Positions 6,799 to 50,021 of a stretch of DNA of 50,454 nt are shown piece by piece; the first letter of the stretch is position 1, and each line of letters starts with the position of its first letter. The notes beneath the pieces were generated by a model that was not told the DNA's origin, made no database searches, and worked only from the letters and a program-made list of their open reading frames with translations. The translations under genes were made by a program, and so were the position numbers. The stretch is from Phycisphaerae bacterium. GTDB taxonomy: Bacteria > Planctomycetota > Phycisphaerae > Sedimentisphaerales > Anaerohalosphaeraceae. The DNA is taken from positions 1 to 50,454 of the forward strand of contig JAHDQI010000163.1 of assembly GCA_018433925.1 (NCBI GenBank), read 5' to 3'.

Positions 6799-7526
6799 GC
6801 GGCAACAAGAACAACGCCGAGGAGGCCCCCCGCGTCGCGGCCTGGATCGTCACTTATTCCGATATGGTAACGCTTCTTCTGACGTTTTTTGTCATGCTTC
6901 TGAGCATGGCGGAAACACAGATTGACGATCATAAATTCATGGCCGGTCGAAGCTCGATACGGCGGGCGCTGGCGGATTTTGGAATGGCCGGATTCTTAGT
7001 CAGCCAAAAAAGCGGACCGGAATTTCAACATCCAAAACCCGCTTACAATATTGATGAAGGAGAAGATGAGCCGGAAAATCGATCGATTGATTCCCAAACC
7101 GAGATGCTTCGACGAGTGCTTCTTGAAATTGAGAGGAAAATGAAAATATCCCCTTCGCAGATCGACGGGGATTCCAAGGCCTATCTTGCCATGGATATCC
7201 GTTTTTCACCCGGATCATATGTCCTGAATGAAAAGGCCCACAGGGAATTGCAGCTCTACTGGAACCAGCTCCAAACCACAACCGCCGGCCAGGAACCCAT
7301 TCTGTATGTGCTGGGGCTGGCCGCCGATGAATCGAATCCAACACTTCAATGGTCTCTGTCAGCCCAAAGGGCACAAGCCGTAAAGGACTATCTGGACCAG
7401 CTAAATGATAAAGATAAAAAAATATCTATCTTCTGCTGGGGAGGAGGTCCCGGAGGCGAATGGACAGGTCAATCCGGCCTGACAACCAGACAAACCCAGA
7501 TTATGATCGCAATGATAATCGAATAG
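6795..7526 (+). CDS. motB: Second MotB-like protein
   Basis: This 243-residue protein repeats the architecture of its upstream neighbour. A membrane helix contains AWIVTYSDMVTLLLTFFVML with the putative ion-carrying Asp23. A linker follows, then an OmpA-like domain ending with LSAQRAQAVKDYL, the usual peptidoglycan-contacting helix. The two copies are clearly paralogous in the first 40 residues but widely diverged in the periplasmic half, so the duplication is old. The ATGA overlap with the first copy indicates coupled translation, which would suit a heteromeric MotB pair. It is the last gene before a 168 bp intergenic gap with a new promoter. Confidence 0.88.
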   Translation: MSGNKNNAEEAPRVAAWIVTYSDMVTLLLTFFVMLLSMAETQIDDHKFMAGRSSIRRALADFGMAGFLVSQKSGPEFQHPKPAYNIDEGEDEPENRSIDSQTEMLRRVLLEIERKMKISPSQIDGDSKAYLAMDIRFSPGSYVLNEKAHRELQLYWNQLQTTTAGQEPILYVLGLAADESNPTLQWSLSAQRAQAVKDYLDQLNDKDKKISIFCWGGGPGGEWTGQSGLTTRQTQIMIAMIIE

Positions 7527-11164: not shown

Positions 11165-12760
11165 ATGAATTCCTATATACAGACCAATCCAATCCGCTCA
11201 GGTCCGGCCTGGAGCCGCCCGGAATTTCTGTTTACCGGCACTGCGGTGATGCTGCTGACCGGGGTTCTGATCCCCTGGCCGGACCGGGTTCTGGATATTC
11301 TCTGGATTTGCCAGCTTTCACTTGCTGCGGCCGTGCTGGCGATTTGCGCATCCGCCCGCAGCAGCTCTCAACTCGACGGATTTCCGCCGTTGCTGGCGGC
11401 CACCTCTTTTTTAAGCTTGCTCGGTACGGCCGGCTGCATGCGGGCCATCGTCCTGCGACAGGATGCCTGCGGACGGCTGATTCGCGGACTCGGAGACGCT
11501 TTGACTGCCCTCGAACCTCTGCTGGCCCTGATCCTGATGCCGGTCCTCGGTTTCTTTATCCTCTATCTGGTCACCCAGTCCGGACGTCGAATCCGCCAGG
11601 CAATCGAGCATTATCTCGTCCAAATCCTTCCATTTAAAAAAATCGGGCTGGAAACCGATCAAAATCTGAATATTCTGACCCGCCAACAGGCGGAAACCCT
11701 GCTGGAGAAAATTGAAAAAGAAGTTCGGTTGTATGCCTCCATGAACGGCTTGCGAAAATTGATGACCGCCCAGATTGCCGTCAATCTCTTCCTCGTATTG
11801 GCTTCCGCCCTGCTGGCTTGGGCCGGACAATCCATTCAGGCGGCCGCCGAACAAACAGGAACAGTCCTCGAAACACTCGCGGCAGGCATTGCCGGAACTG
11901 CCGTTGTTTCCTGGGTCCCTGTAGGAGCTGTGGCCGCGGCCTGCGGAGCGCTGCTCAACAAAGAATCACTTGCTCTGCCTCGAAATGATGCCGCGAATGA
12001 GCAAAACGGAAGTCGAAAAATCCACATTGTTTCTTCCGTCAGCGGTCGGCCTGAAGAGGTGGAACTGCTCAATCCGGATTCCCTTAGCGACCTTTCGCAA
12101 AGCCAAAAGCCGACAGAGAAAATCGTCCATTTCGAACCGCAGCCGCCCGCCTCTCCCCCGCAAGCGCCTGCCTCCAAAATTCGAACCATAAACATTCGAT
12201 GCAAAACATCCGCGCAATATTATCAAAGTTTGGAAAAACTCTTCACCCATCCCTGTTTCCGGTCTGCTTTTCTGATCTTGACCGCTGAATCCGTAGAAGA
12301 TCTCCCCGTCACAGTCGCCGTACATCCGGCGGTTCAACTGGCCCGGAAAAAGCAAACTGTCCTCCTGATAGATGCGGATTTACAGCGTCATGCAGCCGCC
12401 CGGGTCTTCTCCATGGATCCTCAGACTCTTTGCAGGAAACCCTCTCCGGTTCCTCGTATCAATTCGTTGAAGATACAGTGTCTTATGGACCAGAGGCCGC
12501 AATCCCTTCTGAACATCCAAAACCAGGAAGACGATATCGCTTGTCGCATTGTCTATGCGCCGCAGGGACAATGGATGTGGACTCGCCATGAGGAATGGAA
12601 AATGGACAAAACAAAAGTCTTGTTTTTCAGTTCAAAGACGCCTGAACAGATTCGGGCCCTGTGTCCGGAGGCTGCCGCAGCCGGTGCGATTTTCCTCATC
12701 CCCTCTCTGCACAAAGCCATCAGCCAAGCATCGACAACCCGGCCATCTGCTGTTGAATAG
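11165..12760 (+). CDS. Divergent FlhA-like membrane protein fused to a degenerate BY-kinase/ParA-type domain
   Basis: This 531-residue protein occupies the flhA position but is not a working FlhA by sequence. Residues 20-265 follow the FlhA membrane region: helices near 22-38, 44-62, 73-90, 115-137, 203-220 and 240-264. Residues 141-206 align with the FHIPEP cytoplasmic loop (PFKKIGLETDQN against PGKQMAIDADLN; RLYASMNGLRKLMTAQIA against DFYGAMDGASKFVRGDAIA). The conserved GDA aspartate is lost. After a proline-rich linker (270-340), residues 346-415 align without gaps to a BY-kinase/ParA nucleotide-binding domain: SAQYYQSLEKLF, then EDLPVTV where GEGKSTT is expected, then an intact VLLIDADLQ. 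The canonical FlhA export domain is not recognisable. The frame is intact, with a good ribosome site (GGAGG, ten bases upstream). The function is unknown; a structural or regulatory role at the export gate is a guess. Confidence 0.7.
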   Translation: MNSYIQTNPIRSGPAWSRPEFLFTGTAVMLLTGVLIPWPDRVLDILWICQLSLAAAVLAICASARSSSQLDGFPPLLAATSFLSLLGTAGCMRAIVLRQDACGRLIRGLGDALTALEPLLALILMPVLGFFILYLVTQSGRRIRQAIEHYLVQILPFKKIGLETDQNLNILTRQQAETLLEKIEKEVRLYASMNGLRKLMTAQIAVNLFLVLASALLAWAGQSIQAAAEQTGTVLETLAAGIAGTAVVSWVPVGAVAAACGALLNKESLALPRNDAANEQNGSRKIHIVSSVSGRPEEVELLNPDSLSDLSQSQKPTEKIVHFEPQPPASPPQAPASKIRTINIRCKTSAQYYQSLEKLFTHPCFRSAFLILTAESVEDLPVTVAVHPAVQLARKKQTVLLIDADLQRHAAARVFSMDPQTLCRKPSPVPRINSLKIQCLMDQRPQSLLNIQNQEDDIACRIVYAPQGQWMWTRHEEWKMDKTKVLFFSSKTPEQIRALCPEAAAAGAIFLIPSLHKAISQASTTRPSAVE

Positions 12761-14792
12761 ACTGCATGTTGCGTTCCAACCGGGCATACTGGCCCCGCAA
12801 ACGCTCTTCCGCCCGTTCCAGCCGGGCTTCTTCCGTTTCAATCTGCCGCTCGATATTCGAAATACGGCTCTGGATTCCGGTCTGGGCAATCGGCAGACGT
12901 CCGCTGCCCGTCTTGAGCATATCATCAACTGTCTCATACAGTCCCCCGGCAAAGCCCTGCCGAATACTGATCATCGCATCAAACGTCCCATCCTGTGAGG
13001 CATCAACCGTAAGAGCTAAGCTGTACTCAGGATTCACCGGTCCGCTGGTTGCTGATTCATTACTGCCATACAGGGTATTGCCGCTGATGGTCATATCCCG
13101 GGCCGCAGACCAATCCTCACTTTTGAGCTTAATCTGAGCCGATGTGACAGCCCCGGCCTCAATCGTAACCCGAACATCATACTGGCCGGCCTCCGTATAA
13201 CGGCTGGCCTGATAGAATTTTACCGTTGTGGAGTCGGATGTGCCCGTTTTCTGCGCACCGATGAGAGACAGAAGACCCAGGTAGTCCTCCACAATCGCCT
13301 CATCAAAAGCCGCCTCATCCAGGGAGAGCATCCCGTCGGCCCCAAGAGTCAGCCCAATATCCTTCGGGTTCAAAAACGTATCATTTGACGTAAAACCCGT
13401 TGCATTCAGATTAAACGCAGAACGAATCACCGATTGTATGCTGCTCAAACTGTATTCGCTGGATAAAATACCGGATTTCTTTTCCTCTTCATTATAGGCC
13501 GTCTTTTCATCAATGTACATAATCACCGCATTATAAGCATCGATCATCGCCTGCATCTTATCCTTCAGGGCGCCCGTATCACGATTCAGCGAGACCTCGA
13601 TACTACTGTACCCGTCTTCATCATTGCCCGTTACCCCGTGCAGATTCAGCGTCACCCCGGCAATCACATTGTCAATGGTATTCGAACTTCTCCGGATCCA
13701 CGTACTCTCGTCATCATCGGCTCCCGGCGGATAGCCGTCGATCTTGATCAGGGCGTCCTGAGCCGCCTGCGTTTCGATAAACTGCGTAGGATCGGAAGGG
13801 TCCAGGGTACTCAGGCCGGAGGTAACACTGCCGCCTTCGGTGGTTTCCGTAAAGGTCGGCGGGGTCCAGGCCGCATCGCCTCCCCCCGAAACAAAGGACA
13901 GAGAAATAGACAAAGAGCTTGTTCCGCTGGCCTTGTCTGTCACCACGATCTTCCCGTCTTCGAGTCTGGCCCGCACCGTATCTCCAAAGGCGCCTTCAAT
14001 CTCATCCAGCAGTTCCTCAAGAGTTGTATATTGATTGATCTGAAACTCCCGGGTTTCAATCGCCGCCCCGTCATGCAGTGTTCCGTCAATCAGAATCTGG
14101 TGTGTATCGGTTCCGAAGTTCTCTCCCAACTGAGAAATCTTCGTTGTCAGCGCCGCATCATCTCCATTGACCAGCATCTGCGTCGAGGTATGGACATCGG
14201 TATTGCTTGTATTGATCGAAATCTGGTAGTCAGAACCGCTTTGCCGTCCGCTAAAAACCAGATGGTACCGCCCCCCACTGGGGTCATCATACTCCAAAAT
14301 GCTGGCTGTAATACCCGTATTATCCGGGTCATTATTAATCAAAGTAACCAAATCCTCCAGCGTCGTTGTATCTGTGGTCTGCACGACAAATTCCTGGTTG
14401 TTGTACGACAAAATCAGGTTGCCTGCGCCGACATATTGGGAAAGATAACTAAAACCGCTGTGTACCCAGCGATTGGCCGAGGCCATCTGGCGAATCTTGA
14501 TATTGTGGGTCCCTTCATACGCATTGTAATTGGCGCTGGCCGTCAGCAAATCGGAATCACTGGTCTTGGCCTCATACGAACGCAGTTGACTGGCATCCGA
14601 GAGGGCCTGAAGGGCCGATCGAAACGTACTCATTTTGCTGCTGAGTTGGGTAATCGCATCCCGCTTTGTGGTAAAGCCGCTCATATTCATTTGCAGCGTA
14701 TTCAGCCGTCTTCGCTCAACCTGCATCAACTGTTCTATAATCGCCGCGGTATCGATGCCGGTTGAAAGACCGGATAATTGGATCGAACTCAT
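12720..14792 (-). CDS. fliD: Flagellar filament cap protein FliD (HAP2)
   Basis: FliD caps the growing filament and promotes flagellin polymerisation. The N-terminus (IQLSGLSTGIDTAAIIEQLM) is diagnostic and is followed by the helical D0/D1 region. The C-terminal 60 residues form a long coiled coil (ISNIERQIETEEARLERAEE) typical of FliD. At 690 residues it is longer than the common 450-500, with the extra length in the surface-exposed middle domains. The ATG has AGGAG seven bases upstream. It is the last gene of the - strand block, and its 3' end overlaps the convergent FlhA-like gene by 41 bp. FliS, often next to fliD, is not visible. Confidence 0.95.
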   Translation of the reverse strand: MSSIQLSGLSTGIDTAAIIEQLMQVERRRLNTLQMNMSGFTTKRDAITQLSSKMSTFRSALQALSDASQLRSYEAKTSDSDLLTASANYNAYEGTHNIKIRQMASANRWVHSGFSYLSQYVGAGNLILSYNNQEFVVQTTDTTTLEDLVTLINNDPDNTGITASILEYDDPSGGRYHLVFSGRQSGSDYQISINTSNTDVHTSTQMLVNGDDAALTTKISQLGENFGTDTHQILIDGTLHDGAAIETREFQINQYTTLEELLDEIEGAFGDTVRARLEDGKIVVTDKASGTSSLSISLSFVSGGGDAAWTPPTFTETTEGGSVTSGLSTLDPSDPTQFIETQAAQDALIKIDGYPPGADDDESTWIRRSSNTIDNVIAGVTLNLHGVTGNDEDGYSSIEVSLNRDTGALKDKMQAMIDAYNAVIMYIDEKTAYNEEEKKSGILSSEYSLSSIQSVIRSAFNLNATGFTSNDTFLNPKDIGLTLGADGMLSLDEAAFDEAIVEDYLGLLSLIGAQKTGTSDSTTVKFYQASRYTEAGQYDVRVTIEAGAVTSAQIKLKSEDWSAARDMTISGNTLYGSNESATSGPVNPEYSLALTVDASQDGTFDAMISIRQGFAGGLYETVDDMLKTGSGRLPIAQTGIQSRISNIERQIETEEARLERAEERLRGQYARLERNMQSIQQQMAGLSMLG

Positions 14793-14917: not shown

Positions 14918-17900
14918 TCATGGGTTATGGGTTCCAAACAGAAGATTCTCTTGTCTTTCTGAATGCCTCCGTTCGTGACCATCCAGCCGGATAAGTATCC
15001 GCTTAAGGCAATCCAGTAAGTCAGCCGGAATCGTACGGTTATTATTGGACATAATCTGTCGATAGATCACGGCGGCTTCTTCAGGTCTTCCCTGTTGAAT
15101 GTGTATTTGTGCCATCGACAATTGGGACCGAAGAAATCCTCCGAGCATATTTTCCTGCTTTAAGTATTCTTTGGATATTTCATTGCTTTTTTGTCTATAT
15201 TTTTCTGCGTAGGATTTATAAATTCCACCGTCTAAATCTCGATATTTCAGAAACAGTTCTTCATAAATTGAAATGATATGATCAAAGAATTTCTTCTTTC
15301 GCTCATAGGGATTTCTGACAACCGAAAGACCCGGACAAAGCAGAGAATCCGGATATTGGTGGATCATGCTTTCCAGGCATTGGCAGGTTACACGGTGTCG
15401 CGGCTGCATACGTTTGCTGTTACTGGCAGGCAGTACACGATAGTGATAACCGGCAACCCCATCTGCCCGCTTAAATCGAATACTCAGGGCATTCCTGGTC
15501 AGAAAGTCAAAATCCGATGCCGTCTCCACCAACCGATAAAGACCGGTTCTCTCAAACATGGATCTCCGCTTCAGCGAACCGGCGTTGGGAATGGGTGAAT
15601 ACCCGCAGGCAAATAAAAACGGGACCAGTCGCTGATTGTTCTCAAAATTCTCATACACCCAGCGATCCTGAAAAGACGGATCAAATGGATCAACGATCTT
15701 AAGAACCGATGGATAATAGTAATCGTACCCGGAATACCTTTCGGCATAGTCAGTCAGGGTACGGAGATAATCCCGTTCAATGAAATCATCAGAATCAACC
15801 CCCAGGATAAACTCCCCCCGGGCCTCTTGAATGGCATGGTTCATTGCCGCCGCAAAACCCTGATGCCGCTGCCGCAGGAAGCGAATCCGCGAATCCGAAA
15901 ACGACCGGACAATCGCTTCCGTTCCGTCCGTACTGCCGTCATCGATCACCAGCAGTTCAAAATCCCCAAAGGTCTGGGCCAACACCGATGCCATCGCCTG
16001 ACGGATCGTATCCTGAGAATTATACGCCGCCATATAAACACTTACAAAAGGAACAGAGGCCGCGGAGGGATGTCGCGAAAGATCGGCCTTTCCCGTCTTT
16101 TCACCCTTTTCGGCGCACATCGCCTGCAAAATACCGCGGCCTTTTAAAATGCCCAGCAGTTTCCGAATACTCGAATACATGGCAATCCATAATACAACCC
16201 GGCTCTCTGAGGTATCGGCATACTCCGGAGGAATCGGCAGTTCACGCAACAGAAGATCCTTATTTTGCCTGACAGTAAAAACCAGCAGTTGAATGCGAAA
16301 ATCCTCTTTTAATGCCTGCCTGAGACGCCGTCCAAAAATCTGATTCGGATCCAGGTTTTTCCGACGCCCTTCCAGGCGACTTCTTCGCAGATGCGCCCGA
16401 ATCCTCGAGCGGCCACCGCACATCCAGGTTTCCAGCGGCTGACAATCTCCCCGCCCCAGCGATTTCGGATCCTGCCGTACCAGGTAGAGCGAATCAGGAA
16501 CAAAACAGATTCCGGCAACCTCCTCCATTTTATAATACATATCTTTGTCCATGGAACAGGTCAGGTCCGTATCATACATCGAGGTCTTGAGAAAATCCCG
16601 GAGTTTATAGGTACGGAAAGCGCCGATTGTTCCGCCCGCCTCCAGCGTCGTCTGCCCGTCGGGAATTGGTTTGCAAAAACCCGGTTTGACCGGCCTGAGC
16701 TGTTCATCGCACAGCGTATGCTGCGAATAGATAAATCCGCATTCGGGATGCTCCCGGTGCGCACAAATCATCCGTTCAATGGCATTCGGCACAAGAGCGT
16801 CATCACTGTCCAACTCCCCAAAAACTTCAGCCCGAACCGCCAGTACCCCTGTCTGGGCCGCATGGGAAGCGCCCAGATTGTTTTCGTGCTGAATCAACCG
16901 GATCCTCGGATCACGCAAATAAGGCTCGATCACGTTCCGGGAATCATCTGTAGACGCATCGTCAACAAGAATCAATTCCCAGTCATCCGTTGTCTGGGCC
17001 AGCACGGATTCAATCGACTCCCGGATGTACGATCCCTTGTTATAATTGCGAATAATCAGGGAAAACTGCGGTCTTGACAAAGACCCTGGGCTCTCTTCTA
17101 CATTCTGACCGGCGGCTGTCTGACTAAGCCGAGTCTCATCATAAACCGGAAAACTGTTCCACGGATCAAACGGAATCAATCTCATTTCGGCCGGCCCCGG
17201 ACGGACAAACTCGGTTGCCCTCTCATTCAGCATGCACGCAGCAAAGGAAAAAGAGCGGTTTGAGATGGCCAGCCGGTCACACTGGGTTAGAATATAAAAA
17301 TCAGGATAAAAGGAACCGGCGGCCGGATCGACCCCCAGATCTCCTGCCGTCACGGGATTGTACTCCGCAAAATTCTCCAGCCATTCCTGCGACCCTTCAC
17401 AGGCAACGTATAAAATCGGCTCATCGAGCGTATCCCAAATCTGTCGAAGCCATTGCTGATACCACTTGATTGGGGCAATCGTCCCGGATGCGGATTGGCA
17501 TTCGCGTCGGCCGAGATGAATACCAACCAGCGTTTTCCCACGCCTGCGGATCTGAGCGACGGCCGGCTCCAGGATTCTGCGAACAGACAAAACAGGCCAA
17601 AATAAATACCGAAAATACCTCTTATCCGGGGTATAATACGAAGTATGATACTGAAAACGGCCCTGGAAATTCACGTTTTCAAGACGCCTACCACAAGGAA
17701 GAGTTGATTCGGCCAAATTACAGGAATGCTCATAAACCGTCGGCAACTCTTTTTGAATCAGGGGATCTCGATGCCCGAAAAGAGCCCGGCCAATCCACAA
17801 CGGTGTGTGAACCTCCAGCCCATGCCGATGGGCATAAATTTTCAAAAACGCATACTGAAAAATCCGGTCTCCCAAACCGCCGTGCTGCCCCAGAGAATCC

Positions 17901-18706
17901 ATCGTAATGACGGGAGCCTCCTTTCGCAGCGTAAATATTTCTTTGGGACGGCCTCCCAGATTGGCCGGAATATACGGCCTGCGAACATATCCTTTGGCAT
18001 GGAAATATAGCTCCCTGATCCAGGCATCCTCCCGATCGCCGGTCCCGGCCGTCCTCTCCAGACTGTCCGGATTTTGAAAGTACAGTCCCAGCACCTCGGG
18101 AACCCGCATCAGTTTATGGGTCTGCGAAATCCGTAGCGTAAATTCATAATCCCCCGCCGACTTCATCCGCTCATCAAAGTAGCCGTATTCATCATGTAGC
18201 GAGCGCCGCCACATCGGTTGCGGCCCGCAAAAATAATGCTGCAGCAGTTCCTGACGAGAATACGGCGGATGCCAGTCCGCAACGCGGCAGGGAGTTCGAC
18301 ACTCCCAGGTCTGATTCGGTACTTCCGTAATATAAAAATGAGAATACACATAAGCCACATCGGGATTCTGCTCCAGGACGGCCGCCAGTTTCTCGAGCAT
18401 TTCCGGGGCATGGCGATCATCGGTATTGGCATTGGTGATGTATTTCCCGCGTGCAGCCGGCAGGCCGCGGTTCCAGGCCCCGTAAATCGTTTCCCGCTCC
18501 TCTGTCCGGATATACTGGATCGCCGGATAATGCCCCTGAAATTCCCGAACAATGGCCTCTTCATTCTGCTGCGAGCCGCTATTAACAACAATAATGTCCA
18601 ACAGCCCTTGACGAAACAGGGTCTGCTCCGTCAGATCCTGAAGGCAGCCCCGAATGAATCGTTCGGAGTTATACGTTGACACAATTGCCGAAACAAGCGG
18701 ATTCAT
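14918..18706 (-). CDS. Giant glycosyltransferase: GT2, GT11-like, GT2, GT2, TPR-like tail
   Basis: The 1262-residue protein chains four transferase domains. A GT2 domain at about 3-240 carries the catalytic-type acidic motif NTDD at 94-97. Residues 268-515 resemble GT11/fucosyltransferase-like enzymes: GGLGDRIFQYAF, as in GGLGNQLFQYAF, at 276 onward, and VGIHLGRRE near 394-402 in place of the HxRRxD donor motif. Further GT2 domains lie at 547-750 (DSDD 633-636) and 886-1090 (DSDD 971-974). A helical tail at 1190-1240 looks like one TPR. No membrane segments are evident, so it is cytoplasmic and could build an oligosaccharide stepwise on a protein acceptor. Its start overlaps the stop of the 1894-residue gene (ATGA). 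It is immediately upstream of fliD. Donor sugars cannot be read from sequence. Confidence 0.85.
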   Translation of the reverse strand: MNPLVSAIVSTYNSERFIRGCLQDLTEQTLFRQGLLDIIVVNSGSQQNEEAIVREFQGHYPAIQYIRTEERETIYGAWNRGLPAARGKYITNANTDDRHAPEMLEKLAAVLEQNPDVAYVYSHFYITEVPNQTWECRTPCRVADWHPPYSRQELLQHYFCGPQPMWRRSLHDEYGYFDERMKSAGDYEFTLRISQTHKLMRVPEVLGLYFQNPDSLERTAGTGDREDAWIRELYFHAKGYVRRPYIPANLGGRPKEIFTLRKEAPVITMDSLGQHGGLGDRIFQYAFLKIYAHRHGLEVHTPLWIGRALFGHRDPLIQKELPTVYEHSCNLAESTLPCGRRLENVNFQGRFQYHTSYYTPDKRYFRYLFWPVLSVRRILEPAVAQIRRRGKTLVGIHLGRRECQSASGTIAPIKWYQQWLRQIWDTLDEPILYVACEGSQEWLENFAEYNPVTAGDLGVDPAAGSFYPDFYILTQCDRLAISNRSFSFAACMLNERATEFVRPGPAEMRLIPFDPWNSFPVYDETRLSQTAAGQNVEESPGSLSRPQFSLIIRNYNKGSYIRESIESVLAQTTDDWELILVDDASTDDSRNVIEPYLRDPRIRLIQHENNLGASHAAQTGVLAVRAEVFGELDSDDALVPNAIERMICAHREHPECGFIYSQHTLCDEQLRPVKPGFCKPIPDGQTTLEAGGTIGAFRTYKLRDFLKTSMYDTDLTCSMDKDMYYKMEEVAGICFVPDSLYLVRQDPKSLGRGDCQPLETWMCGGRSRIRAHLRRSRLEGRRKNLDPNQIFGRRLRQALKEDFRIQLLVFTVRQNKDLLLRELPIPPEYADTSESRVVLWIAMYSSIRKLLGILKGRGILQAMCAEKGEKTGKADLSRHPSAASVPFVSVYMAAYNSQDTIRQAMASVLAQTFGDFELLVIDDGSTDGTEAIVRSFSDSRIRFLRQRHQGFAAAMNHAIQEARGEFILGVDSDDFIERDYLRTLTDYAERYSGYDYYYPSVLKIVDPFDPSFQDRWVYENFENNQRLVPFLFACGYSPIPNAGSLKRRSMFERTGLYRLVETASDFDFLTRNALSIRFKRADGVAGYHYRVLPASNSKRMQPRHRVTCQCLESMIHQYPDSLLCPGLSVVRNPYERKKKFFDHIISIYEELFLKYRDLDGGIYKSYAEKYRQKSNEISKEYLKQENMLGGFLRSQLSMAQIHIQQGRPEEAAVIYRQIMSNNNRTIPADLLDCLKRILIRLDGHERRHSERQENLLFGTHNP

Positions 18707-21700
18707 TCCGTCAGGACCTCCTCACATATAGAAGCCGAACCGCCGGAGGCCGCGGGGTTGTCGGCCGGCCAGTCCGGCTCCCTGCATTGATCAAGCAGTT
18801 CCAATACCTCCGGCCGCTCCGGATACATAGACCGGCATATCGAAATCTGCTCCATGGCATTGTCCCGGGCCATTTCGATCAGAAAAGCGGAAGAGCCGGC
18901 CTTTTTATATTGCTGACCCATCGCGATCAAAGCCCGGGCCGATAGATAGTGAAACAAATAGTCTTTATGGCCCGCGGGAACCTGCTCCCAGCGCACATCG
19001 GGAAAAAGCTGTTCAGCCCCGAAAGTTTCCATAAACCTTTTGACTACGGCAAAATGATGACGGGCCTTCTCCTCGGTCACATTTCTGGACGCAGCGGCTT
19101 TTCGGACACGGCGGAAATAGAGCGTTTCTGAAACATGCCGCGCCACCAGTCCGTACTGAAGAAATCGGCGCAGCATGTCATAATCCTCTCCCACTTTCAG
19201 GGATTCATCATAATAGCCGATTCGGTCAAAAACACGCCTGCGGATCAGAGTCCGAAACGGAATAATCGGAAACCCCGCCTGAAACAAATCCCGGATCAAA
19301 TGGTTTGGATTTTGATAGTCTCCTCGCTGATGGACACGGATCGGGGTCCCGTCCTCATTGGCCAGCAGCGTATCGCAGTAAATCATATCCGCTTCCGGAT
19401 GCTCATCATAAGCAGCCAGAAGCTTGGCGGCATGATCCAGCGAGATCATATCATCATGATCCAGGTTGATGACAAATTGGCCTCGCGAATTCCGGATCGC
19501 CAGATTCCGGGCCGCCGACGGACCGGCATGCGGCTGCACAAAATACCGGATACGGCTGTCCTCAAAACGTTTGACAATCGCCTCAGTATCATCGGAAGAT
19601 CCGTCATTGACGATCAGGAGTTCAAGATTCTGATAATTCTGAATCAGTACGCTCTCAATCGCCTCGCTAATATAATCGGCCGCGTTATAGGCCGGCATAA
19701 TAACCGAAATCAGCGGATTGTCCCGGTGGGTGTATCGGGGAACCACAGAAATATACGGATTGCCGTACCGCTTCCCGACAATATAACGTTCATAGAGGGA
19801 ATGAATTTCCCGGCTGTGCTCCAATCCTTCTACATTTTGATAATATAGCCCCAAAAATTGCGGGATGTGCCGGAGAGGATATCTCTGTGAAATGCGCAGC
19901 CAGAAATCCCAGTCAGCCGCCACCGTTAACGATTCATCAAAATAGCCCATCTCTTCATGGAGCGATTTTCTCCACATCGGCTGAGAACCTACGCAGCAGC
20001 CGAACAGGAGCCGCTCAGGCGTATAATCCGGCCTCGGAATCAGTTTCCCATGATGAGAGGAAAACAGAACATTGGGAATGTCTGTTATTACCTGGTCTCC
20101 ATACACCAGCCCCACATGAGGATTTCGGTCCAGTTCCTCAGCCATGATCTCGAGCGCATCCGGACGATGCCGGTCATCCGTATTCGCATTGGTCAGGTAT
20201 TTCCCTCTGGCGGCCCGTACCGCCCGGTTCCAGGCCGCATAAAGACCTTCCCGCTGATTGGTTTTGAGATAGCGGATATGAGGATATCGCCGCTGAAACT
20301 TCTTGATAATCGCCTCCTCATTCTGCTGCGAACCGCTGTTAATGACTACAATTTCAAGTTCTCCCTTTTGGTAAAGAGTCTGATCCACCAGATCCTGCAG
20401 ACAACCGCGAATAAATGTTTCTGAATTATAAGTGGACACAATCGCACTGACCCGAATCACTGAGACAGGAAGCGAAATCGGACTCCCGGCAGAATCCTGC
20501 AGGTCAATCACTGTCTCGACGTATTGCCGGACCTTTAGCGAGGAAATCGGTTCCGGTGCTTCTCTTAGTTGGTGGCCGGCTCGGCGCTCTTCTTTTATAT
20601 AGTGTTGCAGTTCAAGGTCAAGAATCTGCTCCGCCTCCTGATTGTATTCTTTTAGCATGGTATTGGTTTTTTGACCCGGTTGAAAACGAAATCCCGCAAA
20701 GTATTCTTCAACTGAATGAAGATCGGCATATCGAAAAAAGCGGGTCCATAATTCCAGATCGCCGGCCAGTTCAATATCCTTACGAAGAAAACCGCCCGCC
20801 TGCTCCCACAAATCTCTTCGCCAGAAAGATCCTTCCTGCTGAATATATTTATACTCTTTGTTCAGATATTTCGCGCGGTTCCACCGAATCAGACTTCGAC
20901 GCAAACTCCGAGCGCTCCCATCTTCGTTTAAAAGAAGAACCTTGCTCGTTATCCACCGAATATCCGGACGATTCAGAAAGATTCCGGCAGCTCGCAGAAA
21001 GGCCTCCGGCAAAAACACATCATCTGAATTCAGCCAGGTCAGAATATGACCCGTGGAACGCCTGAAGCCCTCTTCAATCGCCGCATACTGCCCTCCGTCT
21101 TTCTGGCTTTGCCAATAAGCAAGGCGGTGTTCATATTTCTTAATAATCTCCACAGAACCATCACTGCTGCCCCCATCCATGATAATATACTCCAGATTCG
21201 GATATCCCTGGCTGAGCACCGACTGGATACAGGCCTCCAAATACCGGGCTTGATTAAAGGAGGGGGTCACAACCGTAATCCTCGGCAGGTCCGGCGGTCT
21301 CTTGCGGGAAGACCCCCAGGTCGGACTGGTTTCAATAACGGCAGAAAGCGGCGATGTGATATCCGTCAAGTGAGTGCCGCCGGCGCTGTCCGCATCCAAA
21401 AAAGCAGTCTCTGTCGCCGGAAAAGGGCCGTTCGGATCCGGCAGAGAGAGGAAACTTGTGTCACATTTTCTCGGTGAACATATCGAGTCAAGAATTTTGA
21501 TATGGCCGCAAATGATGCCGAATACAAATTCCGTATAGGCGATACTCCGATACACCACCGCGTCCGGTGCTTTTTTCTCAAGGATCCGCAGGTGATAGCA
21601 CTTCCAGGCATTGCCGAATAGGCTGCCCAGATTACTGAACTGATTATAACCCACCCGCTCCTGGCATAATTCCAGCAGCCGATGAAAAAAATAACGGCCC

Positions 21701-24387
21701 ATATGCAGCCACTGGTTTCTGTCCCAATTCAGCGGATGATTGATATGAAAAGCAACCGGATCCTGAAAACGAACCAGCGGAATCTGATTCAGAATACAGA
21801 CCATTGGGACATAATAATCCCACCAGGTAGCCCCCAGGCAAAACTTCGAAGCCGGAATCCTCTCGATGATCCTCGGATGAAAAAAGAGAGCATCAAAACC
21901 GCCCACATACATCTCTCCCGTATCCCTGCCCAAATGCTCGACATTCATCCGATTGACACAGACCACGGCCTCCTGCGTCTGCTGCGCAATCGCATTCAGG
22001 TGCCCTTTCTCCAGGGACAGATGAATATCCGAATTGATAATGCCGACAATTTCGAATTGCGTTTCCTTGAGGGCGGCAAGCAAATCGTCAATATAAATCA
22101 GGGGTTTTCCCAGATGCGCTTTTCCGTTTCGTGCGGCCGGGACAAAACAGACACAGGGAAAATGCGCTCGCAGCACTTCTATCTCATCGGGATTATTCAC
22201 ACTGATCACCCGAAATCCCGCCCGGAGCCAGGACTGAACCGCCTTTTGCTGATTGTCGATGTTCCCCGGAGCCAAACTGGTAGCCACAGCAATGGTCTTG
22301 TTCTCGGCTGTTCGTTCCGTTTTCAAGTCCGCACACGGACAGGAAACCGCCGGAGAAGGGGCGGCGGACAATTCCGGCTTTTGATTCAATAAGCGGGAAA
22401 GCTTTTCAAGAAGCGGCTTGCTCGTCTGATCTAAATCCAGAATATCCCGAAAAAACGGCTGTGTGTTTCGGCTCCACCGGCTCAGATTTTCGGCCACATC
22501 ATCCATCTGTATGGGAAAACCGCCGGGATGAACCTTTCCCAATTCATAGCGTCTTACATAATCACTCATCTGACCGTTTTCATTGATCAATACCGGCAAG
22601 CCATGCTGAAGATAAGTGGCAATTTTTCCGGAAGCAAGCCCAAGATAGCGGACATTATTGCCCGCCCATTTGCTGCCCGGGACCGGCTTGTAAAGGGCAG
22701 CTCCAATGTCGGCACAATGGAGAAGCGTATACATCTGATCCGGTGTCTCAACCGGTTCCGTACTGAAATAGACCATTTCGTGATTCGCGTATTTTTTATA
22801 ATATTCACGCGTTCGTTTATCCAGACCATATCGATTATGCAGAACCAGAGCCCAGATACGAGGCCACGTAAACGCACTCTGAACCAGTTCATCAATCATA
22901 CAATAGGTTTCAACGTTGCCGCTGAAAAGGACAATATTCCGACTTCGATCAATCCCCAGCCGGTCATGCAGCAAAGTACTTTTGCGACGCGGCAAACAGC
23001 CGCGGCCGGCCACGGGGATCAAAATCATTTTCTCACGTGGAATATGATTTTCACGACTCAACTGTTCTGCACGAACCGGATCTTGACATATTGCAAAGGA
23101 AATGTTTTTGCACGCCAGGATCTCCGGCTTCTTGTACTCTGCAGATGTTTCGGAGGCAAAAAAGATCTCATAGGAAATCAAAGCATAAGGAATTCGCCTC
23201 GCATGGGCAATCACAGAGGCCTCGACAATGGTACGGTCAACTCCGAATATAAAATCATAATCATCCAGAACGGCCGTCGCCGCCTGAATCTCCGCCATGC
23301 TGCGCATCGGTTGACCGGCCAGCAATACCCATTCCCCCCCTATTTCCTGGGGCACCCGACTGTCAACAAGCAGCATTCTTGCCGCCGGATGCGGGCTTTT
23401 CTGGATAATCCCTTCCCTGCGAGGACTCGCGATATCTACCTCGTATCCCTGCTCACATAGAATTTCCGCGAGCCCGGACAAATTCGGATTATTATTGATA
23501 TTGCCTTCGGAATGAACAATCAATATTTTCTTTTTGCGATTCCATGACTGTACCGGATAGAGACGGCTGCCCGCATTCAGTTGCGCAGCGCGCGCTGTGG
23601 TCCATTTGTCAACCAATCGTTGAATTTCTTCAGAAGAATAAAAATGTCGAACCAGTTTAGACGAATAGACTCTTTCCGCCTGCATCGGTTCTATACAAAG
23701 GGTGTCGTGAACATATTTATATAATGCCTTATCAGGTTTCTGTGAAGTAACATTGTGATTGGCTAACCGGGGAATATCAACACCGAGAAATTCCCGAAAC
23801 GCCTGTCGGTAGCAGCGATTCAAATCCTCCAGTCGAATGCAAAGAATGTCCGCGTGGGCTGTCGAATAAATCTGATATCCTCTGGCCCAATCGAACGGAA
23901 TTGAATAGATATCAAAATCAAGGACCTCCTTCATTTCTCGGTCAAACCATGTACATAGGTACTCTTTCTCCGCATCATAAGTTGCATATTTCTTCTTTAA
24001 AAAGAGTTCGATCTCCCGACACAATGACTCTCTTGAAAGGGATTGTCTGCCTGCATCCGGCAATAATACATTCATGTTCTCAAACAAGTCGGAAATATCC
24101 CGACTCACCGGCTCACGCACAAGGGTAATAAACCGCCAGCGAATAATCTCTTTGGTCTTATCAAAAAGAGCGCGAGCATATTTGCTGCGGGCCATATACA
24201 GATCTTTCTCCTTACGGCCCTGCTCTTGATAATATTTTTCTGCGCTTTCTATCCCTTCCCAGGAAAAGCAATGGGCATGTGTAATCAATTCACCAGGCAA
24301 ATACTTCTCCAGCGTCCGCTGAACAGTCATTGAGCCGACCTTGCCCATCTGATATACTACGATTGGATGAGTGAATCGTTTCTTCAT
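18703..24387 (-). CDS. Giant 1894-residue sulfotransferase-like/GT-B/GT2 multi-domain enzyme
   Basis: Six modules are visible. Residues 8-265 resemble a sulfotransferase/capsule-synthesis P-loop domain: VVYQMGKVGSMT at 10-21 as the 5'-phosphosulfate loop, and REPVSRDISDLFEN at 91-104 as the 3'-phosphate site. Residues 286-670 are a GT-B fold of GT4 type. Residues 697-970 form a globular domain I cannot assign; an INSDIH motif near 784 suggests a GT-A-like fold. Three GT2 domains follow, at about 1035-1275 (NSDD 1120-1123), 1311-1545 (NTDD 1402-1405) and 1558-1770 (DHDD 1643-1646), then a helical tail. A sigma-54 promoter precedes the gene and the next giant transferase overlaps its stop by four bases. 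It probably assembles and possibly sulfates a flagellar glycan; substrate and linkage are unknown. Confidence 0.82.
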   Translation of the reverse strand: MKKRFTHPIVVYQMGKVGSMTVQRTLEKYLPGELITHAHCFSWEGIESAEKYYQEQGRKEKDLYMARSKYARALFDKTKEIIRWRFITLVREPVSRDISDLFENMNVLLPDAGRQSLSRESLCREIELFLKKKYATYDAEKEYLCTWFDREMKEVLDFDIYSIPFDWARGYQIYSTAHADILCIRLEDLNRCYRQAFREFLGVDIPRLANHNVTSQKPDKALYKYVHDTLCIEPMQAERVYSSKLVRHFYSSEEIQRLVDKWTTARAAQLNAGSRLYPVQSWNRKKKILIVHSEGNINNNPNLSGLAEILCEQGYEVDIASPRREGIIQKSPHPAARMLLVDSRVPQEIGGEWVLLAGQPMRSMAEIQAATAVLDDYDFIFGVDRTIVEASVIAHARRIPYALISYEIFFASETSAEYKKPEILACKNISFAICQDPVRAEQLSRENHIPREKMILIPVAGRGCLPRRKSTLLHDRLGIDRSRNIVLFSGNVETYCMIDELVQSAFTWPRIWALVLHNRYGLDKRTREYYKKYANHEMVYFSTEPVETPDQMYTLLHCADIGAALYKPVPGSKWAGNNVRYLGLASGKIATYLQHGLPVLINENGQMSDYVRRYELGKVHPGGFPIQMDDVAENLSRWSRNTQPFFRDILDLDQTSKPLLEKLSRLLNQKPELSAAPSPAVSCPCADLKTERTAENKTIAVATSLAPGNIDNQQKAVQSWLRAGFRVISVNNPDEIEVLRAHFPCVCFVPAARNGKAHLGKPLIYIDDLLAALKETQFEIVGIINSDIHLSLEKGHLNAIAQQTQEAVVCVNRMNVEHLGRDTGEMYVGGFDALFFHPRIIERIPASKFCLGATWWDYYVPMVCILNQIPLVRFQDPVAFHINHPLNWDRNQWLHMGRYFFHRLLELCQERVGYNQFSNLGSLFGNAWKCYHLRILEKKAPDAVVYRSIAYTEFVFGIICGHIKILDSICSPRKCDTSFLSLPDPNGPFPATETAFLDADSAGGTHLTDITSPLSAVIETSPTWGSSRKRPPDLPRITVVTPSFNQARYLEACIQSVLSQGYPNLEYIIMDGGSSDGSVEIIKKYEHRLAYWQSQKDGGQYAAIEEGFRRSTGHILTWLNSDDVFLPEAFLRAAGIFLNRPDIRWITSKVLLLNEDGSARSLRRSLIRWNRAKYLNKEYKYIQQEGSFWRRDLWEQAGGFLRKDIELAGDLELWTRFFRYADLHSVEEYFAGFRFQPGQKTNTMLKEYNQEAEQILDLELQHYIKEERRAGHQLREAPEPISSLKVRQYVETVIDLQDSAGSPISLPVSVIRVSAIVSTYNSETFIRGCLQDLVDQTLYQKGELEIVVINSGSQQNEEAIIKKFQRRYPHIRYLKTNQREGLYAAWNRAVRAARGKYLTNANTDDRHRPDALEIMAEELDRNPHVGLVYGDQVITDIPNVLFSSHHGKLIPRPDYTPERLLFGCCVGSQPMWRKSLHEEMGYFDESLTVAADWDFWLRISQRYPLRHIPQFLGLYYQNVEGLEHSREIHSLYERYIVGKRYGNPYISVVPRYTHRDNPLISVIMPAYNAADYISEAIESVLIQNYQNLELLIVNDGSSDDTEAIVKRFEDSRIRYFVQPHAGPSAARNLAIRNSRGQFVINLDHDDMISLDHAAKLLAAYDEHPEADMIYCDTLLANEDGTPIRVHQRGDYQNPNHLIRDLFQAGFPIIPFRTLIRRRVFDRIGYYDESLKVGEDYDMLRRFLQYGLVARHVSETLYFRRVRKAAASRNVTEEKARHHFAVVKRFMETFGAEQLFPDVRWEQVPAGHKDYLFHYLSARALIAMGQQYKKAGSSAFLIEMARDNAMEQISICRSMYPERPEVLELLDQCREPDWPADNPAASGGSASICEEVLTE

Positions 24388-44019: not shown

Positions 44020-45204
44020 CTACATAAAATCAAGCAGCGACATCGAAAAAATCTTTGAGGCCGCCGTCAGCGACATCTCATAAAGCATCTGGTGACGCGC
44101 CAGGTCAATCGCCACCTGCGTAATATCCGCGTCCCGGAGACGGCTGATCTCCTGGTCAGAATTCAGCTTCATATCTTCCATGCTGTCTCTCAGATTGGTC
44201 AGTGTCTCGATGCGCCCCCCGACAATCGGAAACGCGCGAACCAGCATCTGCTCCACATCCTGCATGGAAACAATCGTATCGTTCATCAGTTCCGTAAGAA
44301 CCCCGTCATCATAGCTCTGGGTATTCTTCAGCAAGTCCCGGGCATGAATCAGAATATTAAAAATATCATAGGTCCCCGGCACGCGAACCGGTACGGTTCC
44401 GGCCTGCTGAATCGCCGTCGCGTCAACATACAGCACCTCTCCCGTTTCCGAATGCACCACCGCCACGTTGGTCTCCGTCCCGTTAACCGTCACGCTGCTT
44501 GCCCCGCCGTCGATGGAAAGCTGAAAATTCCCCGTCGCACCGGTAATCGTCAGCGTCACATCCCCCCGCACGCTCGAAGTCCCCGTCCCGGCGGCGGCCC
44601 CCGTATCCCCATAAAAATCCGGACTCTGGCGCGAATCGTTTCGGAAAAGCTGATCGCCCACCAGCAGCGGCGACATCTCCATCCCCTTGATGATTTCGAG
44701 TTTCTGCTCTTCGGCCCCCCCCTGGTAAATGACCCGTGAGATATCGCCGTTTGAATTGCGTTCCACCCGGTAGGCCGGCTCTTCAGCGCTGGCCCCGGCA
44801 AACAAATACTGACCCAGACGATCCGTATTGGCAAACGCCACCAATTGCTCCAGGGCATTATCAATCTGTTCGGCCAGCGACTGGCGAATCTGAATACTGG
44901 TCGTACCCGACATCGTAGAGGCCATATCCGCACGCGCCTGGCCCAGTTCATTCATGATGCTCTGCACCACCGAGGAACTCAACTCCAGAATACTGATCGA
45001 TTCCTCCATCGTTTTCAGATATACTTCCTTCGAACGGCTGTCTGTCTGAAAACCCAGAATATAATTCGACCGGTTCGGATCATCTGAAATCCGGTTGACA
45101 TCCTGTCCCGTCGCTGCCCGCTGCTGCAGCAGATTCAGCGCCGTGGTATGCATGCTGATCGCCCAGCTCGTATTCTTAAAGATCGCATCCAGTGAATAAC
45201 TCAT
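44020..45204 (-). CDS. flgL: Hook-filament junction protein FlgL (HAP3)
   Basis: FlgL joins the hook to the flagellin filament. The 394-residue protein has flagellin-like terminal helices. The N-terminus includes ISMHTTALNLLQQRAATGQDVNRISDDP, with the shared flagellin/FlgL pattern of a long helix and then DDP. It continues with LGQYLFAGASAEEPAY near 145. The C-terminus has GGRIETLTNLRDSMEDMK and ends with the amphipathic helix LTAASKIFSMSLLDFM. The central insert (about 190-290) is glycine/threonine-rich and surface-exposed. It follows flgK after 26 bp. No flagellin gene follows; glycosyltransferases do. Confidence 0.94.
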   Translation of the reverse strand: MSYSLDAIFKNTSWAISMHTTALNLLQQRAATGQDVNRISDDPNRSNYILGFQTDSRSKEVYLKTMEESISILELSSSVVQSIMNELGQARADMASTMSGTTSIQIRQSLAEQIDNALEQLVAFANTDRLGQYLFAGASAEEPAYRVERNSNGDISRVIYQGGAEEQKLEIIKGMEMSPLLVGDQLFRNDSRQSPDFYGDTGAAAGTGTSSVRGDVTLTITGATGNFQLSIDGGASSVTVNGTETNVAVVHSETGEVLYVDATAIQQAGTVPVRVPGTYDIFNILIHARDLLKNTQSYDDGVLTELMNDTIVSMQDVEQMLVRAFPIVGGRIETLTNLRDSMEDMKLNSDQEISRLRDADITQVAIDLARHQMLYEMSLTAASKIFSMSLLDFM

Positions 45205-45230: not shown

Positions 45231-47255
45231 TCAGGAAAGCAGGGTCAGCAGCGCATCCATTGTCGAATGAATAGTGCTAATATACTGAGCCATCCCCTGG
45301 AACATTCGCTCATAGATAATCATCCGGCCGGCCTCTTCGTTGACATCCACCGCGCTGAGCGAATCCCGGTGCTGCTGGAGACTTCGCAAAATCCCTTCGG
45401 TATTGTTATATTGCAGCTCCATCATGGAAATATCATGACCCACATTCACCGCCAACTGTCGGTAATATTCCTTGGTCGTCAGCCCCCCCAGGTCGCTGAG
45501 GGCCTGATCGCCCAGCCGGGCCATCGCCAGGCAATTCAGGTTGCCGGTCGCATCCCCGCTTTGCGACGCCGCGATCCGGGAGACATCCTGCCGAATCTCT
45601 TCAGCCACTTCTATCGAAGAGGCGTCGCGCCCGGCAAAGAAGCTGTTGATCCCAACCGCCGCCAGAAAGCCGGACGTATCCGAACTGGCCAGCGCCTCGA
45701 TCGTCAACACGTCCCCGTCATTCAAATACCCGCCGCTCTGGCCGTTGGGTTTGAAGCAAACACAAATCCCGCTATCCAGTTCGATCATAGATCCCGGCTC
45801 ATAATCCGATCCGACCATGACCGTAGCCACGGTACTGCCCGATCCATCCACCACCTCCAGTTCCATTGTCCCGTTGCCGACCTCCAGCGTTCCCCCCGGA
45901 GGTGAGGTATGCACCGTACAGGTATACGTCTGGTTTACCGAACCGGTATAGGAACCGGATATTTCGATAAGCGGAGCAAGCTGATCGGCGCCGGCCCCGG
46001 CCCCGGCCAGGGGGTCGGGAATCGTCAGCGTCGGGGAAGTCATCACGCCCGGCAGAAAATCATATTCATAACCCGTATTGGCCACGATCTGAAGCCGCCC
46101 GGAATAGATCCCCGTCCCGCTGTCCAGGCCCGGTATGGCCGCCAGGTCCGCGGCCACACTGGCCAGCGTACTGGTCGCATCCACCGTCACCGCGTAACGC
46201 CTCGCTTCGCCGCTCGGGTCCGTCACCCGCACATAAATCGTCCCGCTGGTCACCGGCGGCACAAAATCCGCCACATCGGTTTCGGTCATCGTCCACCCGG
46301 TCAGACTGGTAAACGACCCGCTGCCGACGCCCTGGACATGCTGTTGATTGACCTCGGATATCACGGTCACCGCCAGGGTGTCCAGTTTCGTAATAAAATC
46401 CTCAAGAACCCGGTTTCGAAGATTCAAAACTCCGCCCAGCGTCCCCCCCTGAATGCTCGTCCGATACACCTCCGAATCCGCCGCCGCAATACCGATATCC
46501 ATCGATTCCCCGTCCTCTACCATACCCACACGAAGCGGACTGATATTCGAACCGATCACAAGCGGAATATCCGATATCAATACATCTTTGACCCCGTTTT
46601 CTCGCTGAATCTGACGAACCTCAGCCAGTTCTCCCAACTCACTGATCAGCAGGTCCCGCTGGTCCATCAGGTTGCTGCATTCCTGCCCCCGCACCTGAAG
46701 TGTAAAAATCTGCTGATTCATCACGGCAACCTGGCCGGCAATTTGATTGATCTTCTCCACCGCACTAAGGGCTTCGCTGTACAGCGAATCCTGCAAGTCA
46801 CTGACCACAGTGGCCAGATTCCGAATTTGGTTGGCCAGGGTCTCGGCCGCCGAAAGAACCGAGGTCTTGTAGTTAACATCCTGCGGACGAAGCGACAGGT
46901 CAGACAGCGACGCGTAAAAACGATCCAAACTCTCACTGATGCTTGTCGTGGTCAGCTCGCCCATCGCGCTTTCCACAATCCGCATGGCATCCATCTCGCG
47001 AGAGATGGAAGAAAGCGAGGAATCATACCGCAGCATCTCCGATTCAAGAAATTCATCAATCCGGCGGCGAATCCCCGCGTATTCCACCCCCTGTCCGACC
47101 ATCACCCCCCCCGTGATGCTGTCGCGCGCCGGACGAAGATCCACCTCCTGCTTATGATAGCCCTACGTCGCCGCGTTGGCCAGGTTGTTCCCGATAATAT
47201 TCAGGGCATTCTGCGCCGCGTGAATGCCGCTCATTCCTATATCATATCCAGCCAT
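45231..47255 (-). CDS. flgK: Hook-associated protein FlgK (HAP1) with an in-frame amber codon
   Basis: Read from the ATG at 47255, the frame gives MAGYDIGMSGIHAAQNALNI and then NNLANAAT, the standard FlgK N-terminus. Codon 31 is TAG, where FlgK proteins have a residue just before GY. After it the frame continues without interruption through GYHKQEVDLRPARD to the C-terminal MTQYISTIHS-like FlgK helix (MAQYISTIHSTMDALLTLL), 674 codons in all. Both ends match the family, so a single base change separates it from an intact gene. It may be a true mutation, a sequencing error, or read through; restart downstream (GTG 47144 or ATG 47102) would lose the conserved first helix needed for assembly. Several neighbours use TAG as a normal stop, which argues against general reassignment. 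Confidence 0.88.
47105..47112. repeat. Eight-base G homopolymer in the coding strand of flgK
   Basis: The coding strand carries GGGGGGGG just before GTGATG, 50 bases after the amber codon. Tracts of this length can slip in replication, so it is a potential phase-variable or error-prone site. The present length keeps the frame. Confidence 0.6.
47163..47165 (-). other. In-frame amber (TAG) codon at position 31 of flgK
   Basis: The context is GCG ACG TAG GGC TAT, replacing a sense codon in the otherwise conserved NNLANAATxGY segment. Single-base sense neighbours include GAG, AAG and CAG. Confidence 0.85.
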
Positions 47256-47318: not shown

Positions 47319-47828
47319 TTACAGTTTCAGATTCATCAGTCCCGTCCCCGCGCTCCAGGCGCGGCGGCCCCGGGCATCATACGTCTCCGTCTTTTCTCCG
47401 GTGCCCATCACCGCCTCCAGAAGACGCCGGTTCATCCGGGCGCATTCACGAACCAGCAGCTCCGTCGCCAGATGCTGCTGGCGCAGCCGGGCAACCTGCC
47501 CGCGCAGGGCCTGCCGCCGAACCTCAATCTTCTCCCGCAAATCCGCATCCGCACGCGACCCCGCCAGCGACAAACACACCGCCTCCCCCGCACATCCCAG
47601 GGACTCGGCCAGTGTCTCCTGAAGCGCCTGCCGAGACCGATCCAGTTCCGCCCGCCTTTGCCCTTCCTGCCCAAGCTGCGCCTGCATCTCCTGCATCGCA
47701 GGCAAATCCCTCCGGATCAGCGATTCCCGAAGCCCGTCCAGCAAGGCAAGCAGGACCTGAAGATGGTCGGATTGACGATCCAGAAAAGCAATCACCTCTT
47801 CGGCCAGTTCTCGGCTCAGTCTGTTCAT
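47319..47828 (-). CDS. flgN: FlgN-type chaperone for hook-associated proteins
   Basis: FlgN proteins bind FlgK and FlgL in the cytoplasm and keep them export-ready. The 169 residues are almost entirely helical: a first long helix (ELAEEVIAFLDRQSDHLQVL), a conserved-looking EGQRRAELDRSRQAL, and a third helix around LRQQHLATELLVRECARMN. The C-terminal SAGTGLMNLKL tail is short and non-helical. It lies between the rod protein gene (ATGA overlap) and flgK, the standard location. Sequence conservation in this family is low; order and helical pattern support the call. Confidence 0.82.
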   Translation of the reverse strand: MNRLSRELAEEVIAFLDRQSDHLQVLLALLDGLRESLIRRDLPAMQEMQAQLGQEGQRRAELDRSRQALQETLAESLGCAGEAVCLSLAGSRADADLREKIEVRRQALRGQVARLRQQHLATELLVRECARMNRRLLEAVMGTGEKTETYDARGRRAWSAGTGLMNLKL

Positions 47829-48241: not shown

Positions 48242-49369
48242 TTACATCATCTCCAGCTTGGCCTGCAGCGCGCCGGCACGGTTCAGCGCATCAAAAATGG
48301 AAATCAAATCCCGAGGCGAAGCCCCGATTGCGTTCAGTGCCTTGGCCAGTTCCTCCACCGTCACCGCCCGGGGCACGTTAATCAAATGCCCCTGGCGTTC
48401 TTCCACCGAAAGTGAGCTGTCGTCAATAATCGCCGTCGTCGCCGCATCCGTAAACGGAGTCGTCGGCTGAGACACATACTGCTGCTCCTTGATCTTGACC
48501 ACCAGGTCGCCCTGGGCCACCGCCGTTTCGGAAATGCTCACGGTCCCTCCTACCACAATCGTGCCGGTGCGCTCATTGATGACCACAATCCCCGGCATAT
48601 CCACCTCCACCTCCAGGTGAAGCAGCGAATCCACAAACCCCAGCACATCCGTATCCGTCACACTGTCCGGGATCCGCACACGAATCGTCCCCGGATCCTC
48701 CGCAAATGCCGCCCCCGGATACAACGTTTCAATGGCCCCGCGAATCCGTTCGGCCGTCGTAAAATTTTGATGCCGCAGCGACAGCGTAATATACCGATAC
48801 CCGCCAAGCACCTGCACAAACTGTGACGTTTCAGCCCGTTCCACATAAGCCCCGTTGGGAATGCGCCCAACCGTCGGGTGATTCTTCGCTACCTTCGAGC
48901 CGGTCTTGCCCTCCACCGTCCACGAGCTGGTCGAAATCGCCGCCACACGCGCCACCGCGTACACTTCTCCGTCCAGCCCCTTCAGTTCCGTCGCCAGCAG
49001 GGTACCGCCCTGGAGACTTTCCGAACGCCCCAGCGCCGAAACATGAATATCAATCAGCGACCCTTCCCGATCCCACGGCCCCAGTTCCGCCGTCACCATT
49101 ACCAGCGCGATATTCTCAGACCGCAGATAGAGCGGATCAAAACTGATGTTTCCCTCCCGCTGCAGCAGACTGGTCAGCATTTGCGCGCTCGGCAGCAACC
49201 CGTCCCCGGTGCCGTTGAGCCCCACAATCAGACCCGTCCCGTACAGCGGGTTGCCGCGAATGCCGTGCACCTCGGCAATATCCACGATCCGGGCCCCAAA
49301 GAGCGGCAGCCCGAATACCCAAAGCAGCAAAATGCCTGCCCATCCCGTTTGTTTTCCTGTTCGCATCAT
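48242..49369 (-). CDS. flgI: Flagellar P-ring protein FlgI
   Basis: FlgI forms the ring around the rod in the peptidoglycan layer. The chosen start gives 375 residues, with a signal peptide at about 1-26 (GILLLWVFGLPLFGARI) and the diagnostic DIAEVHGIRGNPLYGTGLIV after it. It continues with the FlgI body (ALVMVTAELGPWDREGSLID, IRVRIPDSVTDTDVLGFV) to the C-terminal ALNAIGASPRDLISIFDAL. GGGGA lies five bases before this ATG; an ATG 13 codons upstream lies inside flgH. Presence of FlgI and FlgH implies a diderm envelope. Confidence 0.95.
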   Translation of the reverse strand: MMRTGKQTGWAGILLLWVFGLPLFGARIVDIAEVHGIRGNPLYGTGLIVGLNGTGDGLLPSAQMLTSLLQREGNISFDPLYLRSENIALVMVTAELGPWDREGSLIDIHVSALGRSESLQGGTLLATELKGLDGEVYAVARVAAISTSSWTVEGKTGSKVAKNHPTVGRIPNGAYVERAETSQFVQVLGGYRYITLSLRHQNFTTAERIRGAIETLYPGAAFAEDPGTIRVRIPDSVTDTDVLGFVDSLLHLEVEVDMPGIVVINERTGTIVVGGTVSISETAVAQGDLVVKIKEQQYVSQPTTPFTDAATTAIIDDSSLSVEERQGHLINVPRAVTVEELAKALNAIGASPRDLISIFDALNRAGALQAKLEMM

Positions 49370-49388
49370 ACCTGTCCCCGGTTCCCGA

Positions 49389-50021
49389 TCAGAACGGCCA
49401 GATCGCATCCAGCAGCTTGCCCAGCCAGCCCGGCTTTGTAAAATCTTTCGTTACCCCCTCGCTCAGCGAAACCATCTGAAAATTGGCAATCTGCTCGCTG
49501 CGAATCGTGTTGTCAAATCCGATGTCGCGAGGACGCACGATCCCGCTGACCTGGATAACCTGTGTATCCCCGTTGATCTCCCGGCTCCGCGTACCGATGA
49601 CCACCAGGTTACCGTTGGGATGAACATCCTCCACAACCACGGTAATCCGGTCCTCAATCGATCGCTCATCCTTATAATCCGATTTTCCGCTTAAACTCTT
49701 TTCTGAATCGAGGTCCACCTTCACCTTGCTGACGCTCGGAACCAGGTGCCCGATGGAAAGATCATCATTGCCCACCTCAAAACTTCGATCGCTGCTGCGG
49801 CTCAGGTCCCGTTTGACCTTGTTGTCTACTTTATGATCTTCGTTGATGACAATCGTCAGCACATCCCCGATCTGGTTGGCCTTGTCATCGGCATACAGCG
49901 ATTTGCTGTTTTGCCCGCGTTTGGCCCAGATCGACCCGGCCTCCGCGATACCGGCGGCCGCACTCAGCACAAGCCCGGCCGTTACGATTCCAAATGTCCG
50001 GCGGTTGACAAAATCCATCAT
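49389..50021 (-). CDS. flgH: Flagellar L-ring protein FlgH lacking a lipobox cysteine
   Basis: FlgH forms the outer-membrane L-ring and is normally a lipoprotein. The 210-residue protein has a signal sequence (about 8-28, ending AGIAEAGSIWAKRG). The FlgH body follows: SLYADDKANQIGDVLTIVIN, RSIEDRITVVVEDVHPNGNL and IQVSGIVRPRDIGFDNTI. No cysteine is present near the cleavage site, so lipid attachment as in enteric FlgH is not possible and signal peptidase I cleavage (AEAG) seems likely. Its ATG overlaps the flgA stop (ATGA). Otherwise length and motifs are canonical. Confidence 0.94.
   Translation of the reverse strand: MMDFVNRRTFGIVTAGLVLSAAAGIAEAGSIWAKRGQNSKSLYADDKANQIGDVLTIVINEDHKVDNKVKRDLSRSSDRSFEVGNDDLSIGHLVPSVSKVKVDLDSEKSLSGKSDYKDERSIEDRITVVVEDVHPNGNLVVIGTRSREINGDTQVIQVSGIVRPRDIGFDNTIRSEQIANFQMVSLSEGVTKDFTKPGWLGKLLDAIWPF

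Follow-up and report, generated by a model that had tools for sequence, protein, structure and literature searches.

The window analysed here, a stretch of 50,454 nucleotides of contig C93 from an uncultured planctomycete of the Phycisphaerae whose draft genome comprises 441 contigs with 3.76 Mb and is 98.8% complete, carries many flagellar genes. On the minus strand, flgH for the L-ring (49389..50021), flgI for the P-ring (48242..49408), the segment 47825-48211, a flgN-like chaperone gene (47319..47828), flgK for the hook-filament junction protein HAP1 (45231..47255) and flgL for HAP3 (44020..45204) follow each other in the order that is also found in the genus-mates, with the flgN-like gene directly upstream of flgK. 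The filament cap gene fliD (12720..14792, minus strand) as well as FlgL, FlgI, FlgH and FlgN are intact, and the same is true for FliG, FliH, FliI, FliJ, MotA, MotB, FliO, FliP, FliQ, FliR and FlhB. FliF and FlgA are visible in part or nearly so at the window ends, while flagellin-type genes and FlhA lie open at other loci, the latter followed up to the end of its contig.

The exception is flgK. Translation of 47255-45231 on the minus strand reads MAGYDIGMSGIHAAQNALNIIGNNLANAAT, then a stop, and continues with GYHKQEVD..., ending at a TGA. An initial sequence-only reading had noticed a single amber codon in an otherwise complete gene, and the minus-strand translation confirmed that the TAG at codon 31 (47163..47165, CTA on the plus strand) is the sole internal stop of 674 codons. 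The 643 codons behind it contain no further stop and no frameshift. The claim that both ends of the gene are typical of the family was likewise borne out: the read-through protein matches FlgK_D1 (PF22638) with 2.8e-49 at residues 94-311 and Flg_bb_rod (PF00460) at residues 6-33, the N-terminal motif that spans the stop, and the C-terminal Flg_bbr_C match falls just below the cut-off. Compared with the FlgK/HAP1 family (PF22638, flanked by PF00460 and PF06429 at the ends; solved chains 9go6, 9gsx and 4ut1), it can be matched from residues 6-7 through 672, and the neighbours flgL, flgN, flgI and flgH are shared; the difference is the interruption at codon 31. Hence, both conserved terminal segments are encoded in frame, with the TAG inside the N-terminal one, but translation by the standard code does not connect them in one polypeptide. 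The expected product has 30 codons (47163..47255) and includes the greater part of the conserved rod/hook/HAP motif at the N-terminus, whereas the longest frame after the stop, opening with GTG at codon 38 (45231..47144), would give a product without the N-terminal segment. The AGGAGG in front of this GTG arises from codons for Gln-Glu-Val in a conserved part of the gene. Five genus-mates with genes open throughout at equal length show that flgK is not the product of two frames aligned by chance. The gene is present in one copy, and a search of the genome for a second copy found none.

The possible recoding of TAG was examined at several levels. In the window, the 40 other listed genes are uninterrupted and 9 of them end in TAG, among them flgL, which terminates with TAG after residue 394 while the genus-mates end one codon later with TAA or TGA; the list of TAG-ending genes given in the sequence-only reading was correct. 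Of 190 long coding frames in a sample of 350 kb, 33 end with TAG, and at a gene junction at 37537 this codon is preceded by a ribosome-binding site and followed just after by an ATG. One genus-mate (G001) even terminates flgK itself with TAG. Release factor RF1 (prfA) is present with its GGQ motif, although split over two contig ends (L123, G000:C207:18-758, and L125, G000:C227:9-329), a break that is perhaps due to strain variation at the gene. The check for pyrrolysine or a suppressor tRNA, which the earlier reading had proposed, was negative: none of the 43 tRNA genes has a CUA anticodon, the single "tag" anticodon belonging to a tRNA-Leu, in a search that a very divergent tRNA could escape and a genome that is 98.8% complete. 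The best match to PylS scored 25.1 bits, far short of the cut-off at 178, and such matches below the cut-off also occur in 12 control genomes. A literature search on amber suppression in planctomycetes gave no match. TAG is an ordinary terminator in this genome, and its wholesale or partial recoding was rejected because it terminates genes, RF1 is present, a CUA tRNA is missing and PylS remains below the cut-off, in line with the earlier argument against wholesale recoding. flgK, conserved apart from its in-frame TAG, recalls the pyrrolysine code expansion of bacteria and archaea; in contrast to that system, only one gene is concerned here, without CUA tRNA or PylS over the cut-off, and all relatives examined have a sense codon at the position. 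Recoding or programmed readthrough at flgK has no positive support.

Comparison with relatives showed that codon 31 is CCG, CCA or GAA (proline or glutamate) in five genus-mates, one of which (G005) has glutamate, and GAA or GAG in family members. The FlgK proteins of the five genus-mates share 64-68% identity with the read-through protein over residues 1-674. A match was obtained in 119 further genomes of the order, and none of them has an in-frame stop inside flgK; the one TGA listed in this survey belongs to a weak second match with 26% identity. One relative (G103, C129:12972-14805) has a flgK that is split, apparently by a frameshift, into two overlapping pieces with residues 1-271 and 305-673. 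No match to the FlgK of this genome was found in 41 of 161 genomes of the order, or in 16 of the 66 good ones, and the search of the collections yielded no second genome of this species. By this comparison, the codon-31 stop is private to one draft assembly. It had been suggested that a sense codon in relatives would expose an assembly error. This does not hold, since these relatives are other species and can show privacy alone, an outcome that a real, recent mutation would produce just as well. Pairwise dN/dS of flgK against the genus-mates is about 0.17-0.20, compared with 0.14-0.16 between intact genus-mates, values with low power on nearly saturated synonymous sites, where a recent change is undatable. 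The FlgK protein is slightly farther from the genus-mates than its nearest mate is, and flgL shows no such excess. An old flgK pseudogene was rejected, because dN/dS and protein distances are close to those of intact copies.

In addition, the assembly was screened for same-frame stops between coding stretches. Roughly 350 kb were sampled with a procedure that recovers about 50% of artificially placed stops, and at this sensitivity no further interruption was judged real. The top-scoring candidate, a TAG at 37539 on the minus strand, lies in the gene junction AGGAG TAG ATT ATG and was judged to be an ordinary gene end, as was a TAG at 37191 on the same strand, which lies between two small, mutually unrelated proteins and is followed by a start codon within a few codons. 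Candidates at five other loci (L117, L116, L114, L109 and L118) were judged by eye to be gene junctions or antisense frames. Of all single substitutions in coding codons, 3.7% make a stop, such that about one stop of this kind is expected per 350 kb at an error rate of about 1e-4 per base and about 0.1 at 1e-5. With no other interruption judged real in 350 kb, the sampled assembly is not riddled with stop errors.

Collectively, the flgK stop most likely reflects either a mutation that recently knocked out the gene or a single wrong base in the assembly, and no new reading of the genetic code is needed. The weights that we attach to the individual explanations are judgements and not calculated values, with a remainder left unspecified. 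We see about an even chance that the TAG is genuine and arose very recently as a nonsense mutation, present as a null allele in the sequenced population. It would have been created by a small change at a position where related species encode glutamate or proline, translation would halt after 30 residues without yielding FlgK, and a hook-basal body lacking a filament would be expected. Cells without FlgK are known to form hooks but no filaments. In this explanation, we infer both the reality of the TAG base and a non-flagellate state of the cells. The stop sits upstream of nearly the whole protein of a single-copy gene, TAG works as a stop in this organism, the screen of about 350 kb at roughly 50% sensitivity revealed no other stop judged real, and genomes in which this flgK finds no match are common within the order. 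However, the other flagellar genes examined and the remainder of flgK are undamaged, and an assembly of 441 contigs makes shallow or strain-mixed coverage possible. Since flgK and the flagellar set are otherwise undecayed, the nonsense event must be very young, which is also how a base-call error would appear. Such an error in the consensus of a draft metagenome-type assembly, caused by a wrong base call, low coverage or merged strains while flgK is intact in the organism, is a serious possibility that we consider somewhat less probable than a genuine mutation. The TAG is one base away from the glutamate codon that is found in G005 and the family members, the rest of the coding sequence of flgK and the flagellar cluster is intact and conserved, fragmentation of the assembly extends to the broken prfA, and an error rate of about 1e-4 would be sufficient for the one stop observed. 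On the other hand, the lack of a second clear stop in the sampled 350 kb indicates that the rate is not high, and the site is 3.3 kb from the window end, away from the contig edge and outside any homopolymer.

Explanations in which a real stop is tolerated with some FlgK still made are far less convincing. Useful readthrough by a near-cognate tRNA or an unrecognised suppressor could be supported by the conserved sequence after the stop and by the G that directly follows the TAG, because a G after a stop codon provides a weaker termination context; moreover, each filament requires few FlgK molecules. We nevertheless regard it as very unlikely, because RF1 is present while CUA tRNA and PylS over the cut-off are lacking, the stop is kept in no other species and hence gives no sign of a selected readthrough site, and a search for a readthrough-promoting RNA structure around it found none, the surrounding RNA folding no better than shuffles (z -0.96). 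Even less credit is given to the variant that a real amber codon is read through at low level, limiting the number of filaments while few FlgK copies are made. A restart inside flgK, at GTG codon 38 or ATG codon 51, leading to a shortened working protein, appears similarly far-fetched. AGGAGG directly precedes the GTG, but with zero spacer, and the product would lose an N-terminal motif conserved across relatives as well as solved FlgK and FlgE proteins. This segment of FlgK carries export and D0 assembly functions. Hence, a restart without spacer and without the conserved segment is not expected to yield a working FlgK.

Of the options offered by the sequence-only reading, a non-flagellate variant, readthrough and a sequencing error remained as the choice, whereas a phase-off state received no specific support. 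The change at codon 31 is of the substitution type without altered repeat length, and neither repeats nor inversion arms were detected at the codon. Some 50 bases beyond the stop, within flgK, there is a run of eight G (C8 on the plus strand, 47105..47112, approximately codons 48-50). It is in frame and not common to the genus-mates. Runs of eight G or C occur eight times in 383 kb sampled, and three of the eight are in flagellar genes, the other two being those in flgL (44715-44722, minus strand) and flhA (L134, 10546-10553).

Loss-of-function alleles of flgK are known from Burkholderia glumae, where deletions abolish swimming and confer resistance to a flagella-dependent phage, and phage-resistant lines carry a stop in flgC or a frameshift in flgK (PMC11898562). 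Knock-outs of flgK are viable and emerge in the presence of flagellotropic phage in that bacterium, which adds to the case for a null allele (PMC11898562). The present allele resembles them in the single small change, the early truncation and the otherwise intact flagellar genes, and non-motility is expected. However, the Burkholderia glumae work used isolates with tested motility and complemented clean deletions (PMC11898562), whereas the base at issue here comes from a single draft assembly. A scan for viral contigs and a search of phage records gave nothing useful. If the mutation is real, it would mark a lineage that just lost its flagellar filament and give a minor instance of flagellum loss, in an order in which about one quarter of the genomes have no match to this flgK. 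If it is an error, it cautions against taking single stops in draft assemblies for biology. Either way, the knowledge on the genetic code is unchanged and the finding is an ordinary one.

Furthermore, some other features of the flagellar region deserve mention. The plus-strand gene at 11165-12760 encodes an FlhA-like protein of 531 amino acids that matches the N-terminal part of FHIPEP alone (profile positions 4-237 of 657). All six genomes of the genus have this protein, with 47-54% identity, and another, more typical FlhA is encoded at a different locus (frames of 713-720 amino acids in genus-mates); by its sequence, the 11165-12760 product is a short, conserved FlhA paralogue. Two MotB-type genes are arranged in tandem on the plus strand (6142-6798 and 6795-7526), the first with a plug/transmembrane domain and without an OmpA domain match. 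Between fliD and flgL, two adjoining giant proteins of 1262 and 1894 amino acids with several family 2 glycosyltransferase domains each are encoded on the minus strand (14918-24387), next to DegT-type aminotransferases, NeuB, a radical SAM/B12 protein and TPR-glycosyltransferases, and the region looks like a flagellin glycosylation island.
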